This document shows, piece after piece, positions 10,343 to 16,614 of a stretch of DNA of 38,068 nucleotides; positions within the stretch are counted from its first letter, which is position 1; every line of letters begins with the position of its first letter. Under the pieces are notes generated by a model that ran no database searches, was not told where the DNA came from, and worked only from the letters and a program-made list of their open reading frames with translations. The stretch lies in NCBI GenBank assembly GCA_913031205.1, contig CAJWEM010000008.1, positions 1 to 38,068 of the forward strand, written 5' to 3'. The position numbers were made by a program, and so were the translations under genes. This stretch comes from an uncultured Gammaproteobacteria bacterium. Lineage in GTDB: Bacteria > Pseudomonadota > Gammaproteobacteria > Poriferisulfidales > GCA-002705445.

Positions 10343-10418
10343 GGCTTGGTAGCTCAGTTGGTAGAGCAGTGGACTGAAAATCCTCGTGTCGGCAGTTCAA
10401 TTCTGCCCCAAGCCACCA
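10343..10418 (+). tRNA. tRNA-Phe (anticodon GAA)
   Basis: This 76-nt cloverleaf has a 7-bp acceptor stem GGCTTGG/CCAAGCC, D-arm GCTC...GAGC, anticodon loop CTGAAAA with anticodon GAA, T-arm GGCAG-TTCAATT-CTGCC, and an encoded CCA end. The anticodon stem GTGGA/TCCTC contains a U28-U42 mismatch; all other stems pair fully. It sits alone between the proteorhodopsin promoter region and the DUF2237/MFS genes. Confidence 0.96.
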
Positions 10419-14131: not shown

Positions 14132-14731
14132 TCAGTTTTTTTTAAATCTATATAATGCGATTTCTCCAAAAAAATTGGGTAAAAAGTTCAAAAGCTTGTT
14201 TGAATCGTAATTGCTATTCAAAACCTTCTTATCAAGAATTGTAATACTTAAATCTTCACAAAGTCTCTCAAAATCTTTAAAAGTACAAAGATGAATGTTA
14301 GGAGTGTCAAACCAATTATTTGGCAAAGAATTAGAGATTGGCATTTTACCAAAAAGACCAAGCTGTAATCTATTTTTCCAATAACCCATGTTTGGAAATG
14401 TAACTATTCCTTCTTTGGCAATTCTTAGCATCTCTAAAATTATTTTGTCGGGATTTTTATTTTCTTGAAGAGCCTGCGTCATTACAGCGTAATCGAAAAA
14501 ATTTTGATCAAAATATTGACCCAGACCAGAATTAAAGTCAGCCTGTATTACGCTTATGTTCTTATTAATTGATTGCTGAACTTTATCAATATCTTTTTCA
14601 AAACCATAGCCTGAAACATTTTTATTTGTTCGCAGAAAATCAAGTAAGGTTGAATCTCCACAACCTAAATCAAGAACCGTGGAATCTTTTTGAATCCATT
14701 CAGATATAAATTTAAAGTCTTTTCTTTCCAT
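14132..14731 (-). CDS. metW: Methionine biosynthesis protein MetW
   Basis: This 199-residue SAM-methyltransferase-fold protein is full length for MetW. Motif I is VLDLGCGDSTLLDFL, followed by DYAVMTQALQ and the MetW-typical FPNMGYWKNRLQL and NLP-NNWFDTPNIH-CT block. MetW works with MetX in methionine synthesis, although its exact reaction is unsettled. It follows metX by 25 nt on the same strand and abuts the convergent TerB-like gene with no gap. It should share the SAM-controlled metX transcript. Confidence 0.93.
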   Translation of the reverse strand: MERKDFKFISEWIQKDSTVLDLGCGDSTLLDFLRTNKNVSGYGFEKDIDKVQQSINKNISVIQADFNSGLGQYFDQNFFDYAVMTQALQENKNPDKIILEMLRIAKEGIVTFPNMGYWKNRLQLGLFGKMPISNSLPNNWFDTPNIHLCTFKDFERLCEDLSITILDKKVLNSNYDSNKLLNFLPNFFGEIALYRFKKN

Positions 14732-14756: not shown

Positions 14757-15890
14757 CTAGCCTACATTCTCCATAAAATTACTTAAAACTTTTAAATAAT
14801 CTGGTATTGGCATTAAAAATGCATCGTGACCTTGGTTCGCCTCTATTTCTGCATAAGAGACGTTCTTCCTTGCTCTTACAAGAGACTTTACAATTTCATG
14901 TGATTTTGAAGATGAAAATCTCCAGTCACTTGTGAATGAAACTACTAGAAAGCGCGAATCAGTTTTTTCAAAAGCCAATGATAAATCACCATTAAAATCC
15001 GCGGCCGGATCAAAATAATCAAGGGCTTTTGTCATTAAGAGATAAGTGTTCGCATCGAATCGTTCTACAAAAGCTTGGGCTTGATACCTTAAATAACTTT
15101 CAACTTGAAAATCTACATCATAACCAAAATGTAATTTTCCTTCTCTTAGATCGCGCCCAAATTTTTGTCTCATCGAGTCGTCGGAGAGATATGTTATATG
15201 TCCTAACATTCTCGCTATGCTCAAACCTCTTTTTGGAATTACCCCATGATCATTATAACGACCATCGTGAAAATCTGGATCAGTAATGATTGCTTGTCTC
15301 GCAACCTCATTGAAGGCAATATTTTGAGCTGAGAGTTTTGCCGCGGCAGCAACAATAATTGAGTTTTTTATTTTTTCTGGATAACTAATTGCCCATTGTA
15401 AAGCTTGCATGCCGCCAAGACTTCCGCCAACGACACATGCCCAGCAGTTAATGCCAAGATAGTCCCCTAACAATTTTTGGCTATTGACCCAATCGTTAAC
15501 AGTGACAATTGGAAAATCTGGCCCAAACTCTTTTCCCGTTTTTTTATCTGTTGAGTTCGGTCCACTTGATCCTCTACAACCTCCTAAGTTATTTAATGAA
15601 ACAACAAAAAACTTATTTGTATCAAAAGGTTTTCCCGGTCCAATACATGAGTCCCACCAGCCTGGTTTTTTGTCGTCTTCATGATGATAACCCGCAGCAT
15701 GATGATCGCCAGAAAGAGCGTGGCATATTAGAATAGCATTACTTTTTTCTGAGTTTAAACTGCCATAAGTCTCGTATATTAGTTCGAAGCTATCTAGGAG
15801 CTTCCCACAGTCCAATCTTAGAGTTTCATTTATCTCAATAGTTTCTGGTTTTACTATACCAACTGAATTTTGTTTTAGTTTGCTATTCAT
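14757..15890 (-). CDS. metX: Homoserine O-acyltransferase MetX
   Basis: This 377-residue alpha/beta hydrolase-fold enzyme acylates homoserine, the first committed step of methionine synthesis. The nucleophile Ser157 lies in [13 protein letters not shown]; Asp322 (FTSDWRF) and His355 (QGHDAFL) complete the triad. [11 protein letters not shown] is the oxyanion block. In proteobacteria where metX is followed by metW, the acyl donor is usually succinyl-CoA rather than acetyl-CoA, so it may be a succinyltransferase. That cannot be settled from the motifs here. The leader carries a probable SAM-II riboswitch. The ribosome binding site (GUGGA, 6 nt upstream) is weak. Confidence 0.95.
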
Positions 15891-15949
15891 ATTTTATCCA
15901 CAATTTCAATTTGAAATCATGAATAAACAAAAGGGAATTTACGTTGCTT

Positions 15950-16006
15950 TATGATCTTCGCTTTAGCTGTATTTTCCCACCCGCAAGCTGACTTCAAATC
16001 GGTGTA
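15950..16006 (-). ncRNA. SAM-II riboswitch (SAM_alpha/metA type) in the metXW leader
   Basis: On the minus strand the RNA reads CACC-GAUUUG...GCUUGC-GGGUG...ACAGCUAAAGC. This matches the SAM-II layout piece by piece: P1 strands CACC (16001-16004) and GGUG (15978-15981); the conserved GAUUU directly after P1; UUGC before the 3' strand of P1; an A-rich segment; and the hallmark AGCUAAA (15962-15968). GCUU in the loop (15985-15988) can pair with AAGC (15960-15963) as the pseudoknot. It sits between a promoter and metX, the classic SAM-II target. Binding of SAM should lower metXW expression. P1 is short, and the aptamer ends about 60-65 nt before the ATG, farther than usual. Confidence 0.8.
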
Positions 16007-16011
16007 TTTGT

Positions 16012-16040
16012 AATATACTGTAATTTATAGAAATATACAA
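16012..16040 (-). promoter_or_regulatory. Promoter of metXW
   Basis: On the minus strand TTGTAT (16040-16035) and TATATT (16017-16012) are 17 nt apart. The predicted transcription start is near 16005, exactly at the 5' edge of the riboswitch. This coincidence supports both calls and separates metXW from the upstream yggT transcript. Confidence 0.55.
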
Positions 16041-16053
16041 ATAAGAAAGAAAT

Positions 16054-16614
16054 TTATCTGAGTAAAATATTGATAAAACTTTGAATGAAATATATTAATA
16101 TTAAAGCTATTATTACCGAGAAATCGATTATGCCAACAGAAGTTGGTATAAACCGCCTTATAAAAAATAAAATAGGATTTGATATCTGATAAATAATATC
16201 CAGAACTGGGTTTCTGTTGGATAGTGGTGATTGAACAAACCAACTTGATATCGCAAGAACTATAAATATTATTGTAAGAGCATTTAGAATACTAAAAATT
16301 GAACTCTTTATAGAATAGATAATTACCTTTTCAACGATCATATCATTTCCCAAAATTGTCCCATGAATATAAAAACTGGCAAAGTGACATAATAAAATAA
16401 CTATAAAGCTTGATAATTCAAATTTTCCAAAGTTTGGTATAAAAAAGAAAAAAGATTTTATTGGTCTAGTAATTTTTATTATTGATTGAGTAAGAGGATT
16501 AGATACGCTTGCATTACATAATGCCAAAAGAATTCTTAATGTAAATATTAAAACCAAAAATGAAAGAACTAAATCTGACGCAAAATAACCTAATTCGGAA
16601 AAAGAGTTTGACAT
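16054..16614 (-). CDS. yggT: YggT family integral membrane protein
   Basis: This 186-residue membrane protein has two copies of the YggT unit: hydrophobic segments followed by a SNPLTQ/IKITRPIKS half and by an ISNPILFFIRRFIP half. The double-unit length fits gammaproteobacterial YggT (about 190). The function is not well defined; homologues are linked to osmotic stress and to membrane protein assembly. It follows proC by 9 nt in the conserved yggS-proC-yggT order. The metX promoter begins just after its stop. Confidence 0.9.
   Translation of the reverse strand: MSNSFSELGYFASDLVLSFLVLIFTLRILLALCNASVSNPLTQSIIKITRPIKSFFFFIPNFGKFELSSFIVILLCHFASFYIHGTILGNDMIVEKVIIYSIKSSIFSILNALTIIFIVLAISSWFVQSPLSNRNPVLDIIYQISNPILFFIRRFIPTSVGIIDFSVIIALILIYFIQSFINILLR

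Follow-up and report, generated by a model that had tools for sequence, protein, structure and literature searches.

We found a SAM-II aptamer on the minus strand directly ahead of metX in a small-genome marine gammaproteobacterium (908-kb genome), and its sequence makes the metXW leader very probably a SAM-II riboswitch of the usual beta-/gammaproteobacterial type. The identity of the aptamer, its conservation, the covariation of its P1 helix and the position of its promoter were each shown by computation, and the first-pass annotation, which had placed SAM-II ahead of metXW, was borne out: all landmarks lie on the minus strand, and ten orthologous leaders carry the core. The element lies in the window (the whole stretch of DNA analysed, 38,068 nt), upstream of metX (14757–15890, minus strand, ATG at 15890), a homoserine O-acyltransferase gene assigned by a succinyl-type model (NCBIfam NF047916, 647.8 bits), and metW (14132–14731, minus strand; TIGR02081, 230.3 bits). 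The nearest relatives of this metX are gammaproteobacterial. Where records of the lineage are named, they are assemblies from marine single cells or metagenomes, and several were deposited as 'uncultured Thiothrix sp.'.

Aptamer and promoter

Read from 16005 to 15958 on the minus strand, which carries every feature described here, the metX leader runs ACACC-GAUUUG-AAGUCAGCUUGC-G-GGUG-GGAAAAUACA-GCUAAAGCGA. P1 joins a 5′ strand, (A)CACC (16001–16005, with CACC at 16004–16001), to a 3′ strand, GGUG(G) (15977–15981, with GGUG at 15981–15978). Because A16005 faces G15977, P1 has four standard pairs, in keeping with the short P1 already remarked on, and the related leader L010 has five. L1, GAUUUG (15995–16000), would by homology serve as third strand in the P2 triplex (PMC6061858). 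In the P2 pseudoknot, UCAGCUUGC (15983–15991), which includes the landmark CAGCUUGC (15990–15983), pairs with GCUAAAGCGA (15967–15958), which includes the landmark GCUAAAGCG (15967–15959). L3, GGAAAAUACA (15968–15977), is an A-rich stretch of 10 nt without a P3 stem. In the structures of SAM-V and SAM-II, SAM is held by the same P2 pairs and the same unpaired U and A (PMC6061858); by homology, U15965 and A15962 would be the counterparts of U47 and A50, which contact SAM in SAM-V.

The leader thus shares with SAM_alpha (RF00521) its P1, GAUUUG strand, P2 pseudoknot, GCUAAA, L3, promoter at the 5′ edge and methionine gene, whereas RF00521 members typically have a P1 of five to six pairs, against four standard pairs in the host genus, and a terminator, which is not seen in the metX leader. 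A four-pair P1 and the ligand-binding core, which is common to SAM-II and SAM-V (PMC6061858), are also found in SAM-V (RF01826), and the element could in principle be a related pseudoknot riboswitch other than SAM-II, either SAM-V or a variant for another ligand. We consider this highly improbable, since the element matches class SAM-II nearly letter for letter, with all ligand-contacting bases unchanged. SAM-V itself was rejected: a P3 stem-loop separates its P1 from its second P2 strand, where the metX leader has only the 10 nt of L3, and a permissive scan of 15860–16100 gave no Rfam SAM-V match at E<=10.

A promoter with a −35 box TTGTAT (16035–16040) and a −10 box TATATT (16012–16017), both kept in relatives, lies at the 5′ edge of the aptamer with the 17-bp spacing noted at first pass. 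The end of the −10 box is 7 nt from CACC, and transcription of metXW is predicted to start near A16005.

Model matches and conservation

Rfam at curated thresholds found no riboswitch in the window; its sole match was an ordinary tRNA gene (10343–10415, plus strand). Likewise, no match was reported when the host genome was searched with RF00521. In a permissive search of the leader, SAM_alpha was the best match, at 15.1 bits (E=0.34 over all families), short of its curated cut-off of 36 bits. This model was the check proposed beforehand, and Rfam taken alone would have had the SAM-II identification struck off by it. The low score stems from a curated model that represents alphaproteobacterial copies. 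We turn to a model, R1, built from 31 SAM-II aptamers of the host's class (hereafter the class), all taken from RF00521 matches, all with the core motif and none from the host's family, in which P1 is the only structure encoded. R1 matched the aptamer (15958–16005) at 48.9 bits (E=6.5e-11 over the whole 908-kb genome) and the elements of the ten relatives at 41.3–49.9 bits. In the host this was the sole significant match (next best 15.2 bits), and no significant second SAM-II copy was found genome-wide. The host genome also encodes a second MetX paralogue (G000:C5:8777-9817) and a single full-length Cys/Met-metabolism PLP enzyme (PF01053, G000:C7:22598-23851), and neither locus has a SAM-II match.

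The element precedes metX in nine genomes of the same genus (G001–G006 and G008–G010) and in one from a second genus of the family (G011). When the 11 aptamers were aligned, 39 of the 57 positions were invariant, and the downstream linker had diverged. In a joint alignment across the class, all five P1 pairs showed changes on both sides; 94.2% of the P1 pair cells were formed, whereas sliding the register left no more than 54%. At the third P1 pair, the ten lineage rows all have A-U and the others G-C. P2 and its GAUUU third strand behaved differently: UUGC and its partner GC(U)AA, like GAUUU and GCUAAA, were invariant in 40 aligned sequences, and so were the nucleotides of the pseudoknot that hold SAM. 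The conservation expected of AGCUAAA and GAUUU was thus observed for GCUAAA and GAUUU, and the covariation sought in relatives was found for P1; the near invariance of P2 means that covariation gives the pseudoknot no support.

An element that is nearly invariant in the lineage and sits directly downstream of a promoter might instead act as DNA and not RNA, as a conserved operator bound by a methionine repressor. The covariation of P1 across the class, the register of the pseudoknot and the match to a structurally characterized RNA family make this scarcely credible. The motif was absent from the more distant metX leaders examined across the class, and thus SAM-II is not a general feature of metX there. 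In one genome of the host's genus, G007 (98% complete), the metXW-type metX and the riboswitch are both missing, and the metX paralogue alone is retained.

A candidate expression platform

How might the aptamer control metXW? From the GCG that ends at 15959 to the metX ATG, the linker measures 68 nt, slightly more than the 60–65 nt first given. The Shine-Dalgarno-like GGA (15897–15899), of which GG(A) is kept in most leaders, lies next to the ATG. The earlier view that the aptamer may not mask the ribosome-binding site directly is supported. Two pairings had been put forward as the platform. The AUCAU/AUGAU pairing is not conserved, AUCAU being missing from most relatives. The AUUUCA/UGAAAU hairpin does exist, but as the core of a larger hairpin of 16 bp (15893–15927; −13.3 kcal/mol for the local stretch, z=−4.07), which contains the Shine-Dalgarno GGA and which we propose as a sequestering hairpin over the ribosome-binding site.

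One arm of this region, UGAUUUCAAAUU (15908–15919), is a putative anti-aptamer. It is complementary to the aptamer strand GAUUUGAAGUCA (16000–15989), with a duplex energy of −12.5 kcal/mol that was matched by 5 of 1000 shuffles. The segment that pairs best with the aptamer strand lies 16–23 nt before the start codon in each of the 11 leaders, and in nine of them no more than 13 of 1000 shuffled linkers pair as well, although the leaders are related and the shuffles are not independent tests. In L003 the aptamer strand carries A instead of G, and in L005 the partner carries C instead of U; each change turns a G-U into a Watson-Crick pair. Upstream, GGGAA (15974–15978) has the potential to pair with UUCCC (15933–15937) in the SAM-free fold, as judged from leader comparison and from minimum-energy folds of most leaders of the genus. 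The counterparts are AGGAA/UUCCU in L009 and GGGAAAU/AUUUCCC in L006, and the helix is absent in L010.

When the aptamer bases were blocked, the UGAUUUCAAAUU segment folded onto the ribosome site, and in the metX leader the 16-bp hairpin buried the GGA. Blocking lowered the accessibility of the ribosome site by 0.10–0.55 in seven of the 11 leaders, a reduction reached by 0 to 10 of 100 shuffles, and hardly changed it in L002, L003, L008 and L010. Since this nested-fold calculation mimics the pseudoknot only by means of blocked bases, it amounts to support and not proof.

We infer from sequence that the leader binds SAM, as well as the direction of control. Transcription of metXW would begin at the 5′ edge of P1. 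With abundant SAM, the H-type pseudoknot, made up of P1, P2 and the third strand GAUUUG, would be locked, which would leave UGAUUUCAAAUU free to form the hairpin over the ribosome-binding site and turn metXW off. With scarce SAM, UGAUUUCAAAUU would pair with the empty aptamer strand GAUUUGAAGUCA, aided by GGGAA:UUCCC, and the ribosome-binding site would be released, turning metXW on. We favour this anti-aptamer and sequester switch, as drawn, with moderate confidence. That metXW is controlled in translation rather than transcription seems likely.

Alternatively, a SAM-II riboswitch could act by a simpler coupling, in which the folded aptamer, acting from afar, impedes ribosome loading or mRNA stability, and the downstream hairpin has no role. 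Control at a distance has been reported for one SAM-II riboswitch, that of Sinorhizobium meliloti metA (PMC9373788), which has translational control and a start codon far downstream in common with the metX leader; there, a Shine-Dalgarno sequence located at the aptamer works over a distance, whereas in metX it lies beside the ATG and would be hidden by a separate hairpin. The four leaders without an accessibility change also fit a simpler coupling, but the complement of the aptamer strand occupies the same place in every one of the 11 leaders despite linker divergence, and we regard this explanation as possible but rather unlikely. A third possibility is a transcription-terminating platform like that of most class copies, in which GCUAAAGC is usually opposed by a GCUUUAGC-like segment with a terminator after it, commonly with a U tract. 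In the metX leader, inspection of the linker by eye revealed neither such an opposing segment nor a terminator, and across the lineage no GC-rich hairpin with a U tract and no GCUUUAGC segment were visible between aptamer and ATG, which renders a terminator very doubtful here. In the literature searched, we found no description for SAM-II of a platform with an anti-aptamer that captures the ligand-binding strand. For the question of how a single aptamer class comes to be coupled to different expression platforms, the lineage offers a compact natural case.

Distribution and probable relation to other elements

We searched 369 genomes of the class, from 271 genera, with RF00521. SAM-II matches at E<=0.01 occurred in 135 genomes and 101 genera, and only 30 genomes exceeded the curated cut-off; the standard model, labelled alphaproteobacterial, therefore misses most SAM-II of the class. 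SAM-II being common in the class, the find is solid and not exotic. A second model, R2, was made from twenty SAM-II aptamers of another class in the same phylum, taken as alphaproteobacterial from sequence. It gave 13.1 bits for the metX element and 29.5–43.1 bits for six class copies; thus, the metX element is of the beta/gamma type. The lateral transfer suggested at first pass is not supported, given this abundance in the class and the fit to the class model and not to the alphaproteobacterial type, and an alphaproteobacterial origin, for which the score was about 13 bits, was rejected. The companion suggestion of an overlooked distribution holds only in that the Rfam cut-off misses most copies; SAM-II in beta- and gammaproteobacteria had already been stated (PMC2258182, PMC2704228), and therefore the distribution is not new.

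One large family of the class, f109 (26 genera sampled), is betaproteobacterial by inference. R1 matched 24 of its genomes, and at 12 of 12 loci examined SAM-II stands ahead of metX on the same strand, with a U-tract terminator in most. Elsewhere in the class, the target is mostly a metZ-type PLP gene or metK. Because f109 loci have SAM-II ahead of metX and beta/gamma SAM-II is published, the SAM-II-metX arrangement of the present locus is an already known one. SAM-II is thus a routine regulator of methionine synthesis in beta- and gammaproteobacteria, streamlined ocean bacteria included.

Two other elements may belong here as well. PMC4239095 reports SAM_alpha only in Rhizobiales and Rhodobacterales, and describes in words an orphan betaproteobacterial metXZ element that lies ahead of metXW or metZ, has a terminator and contains helices that cross (regions 1-4 and 2-6). 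Compared by that wording, the metXZ element shares its targets and crossed helices with the metX leader, but has a terminator platform where none is seen in the metX leader. The SAM-II copies of f109 (L206–L217 and L155) have the topology, targets and placement described for it. On these three features, as that text words them, the metXZ element appears to be SAM-II missed by the Rfam cut-off. The other candidate, RF02424 (Bp2_287), is an sRNA of Burkholderia that was reported to lie upstream of methionine genes (PMC3521395). Its matches coincide with SAM-II elements, but it is modelled on the opposite strand: 20 matches were found in the class sample, all below cut-off, and 17 of the 20 fall on listed RF00521 matches in the opposite orientation. 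One RF02424 match lies on the reverse strand of the metX-leader SAM-II (15927–16002, plus strand), and others lie likewise at G174:C56:69434-69573 and 16 further places. We give slightly better than even odds to the joint proposition that the lineage swapped the SAM-II terminator for a translational switch with an anti-aptamer and a distant Shine-Dalgarno sequence, that the metXZ element is SAM-II and that RF02424 is the reverse strand of SAM-II. Retraining the SAM-II model would probably settle both what the metXZ element is and which strand RF02424 belongs on.

Several further matches were noticed in the class. In G005, a second SAM-II-like element (L204, G005:C14, 3843–3897, minus strand; R1 30.7 bits, Rfam 30.0 bits) lies about 45 nt ahead of a gene for an alkB-type membrane oxygenase, an unusual target, with a ferredoxin gene next to it downstream. 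The contig, just 5.2 kb long, may derive from a contaminant, and recurrence of SAM-II ahead of alkB genes was not confirmed beyond G005. Five SAM-II matches occur in G264. In G160, a match of 39.5 bits (L223, 578–631) is followed by a clear terminator and then by a short ORF without obvious methionine function. Finally, two unrelated genomes of the class have tandem SAM-II-like aptamers about 100 nt apart (L122, 1417–1479 and 1514–1572; L147, 1397–1454 and 1511–1567), and the genes downstream of them do not look methionine-related.
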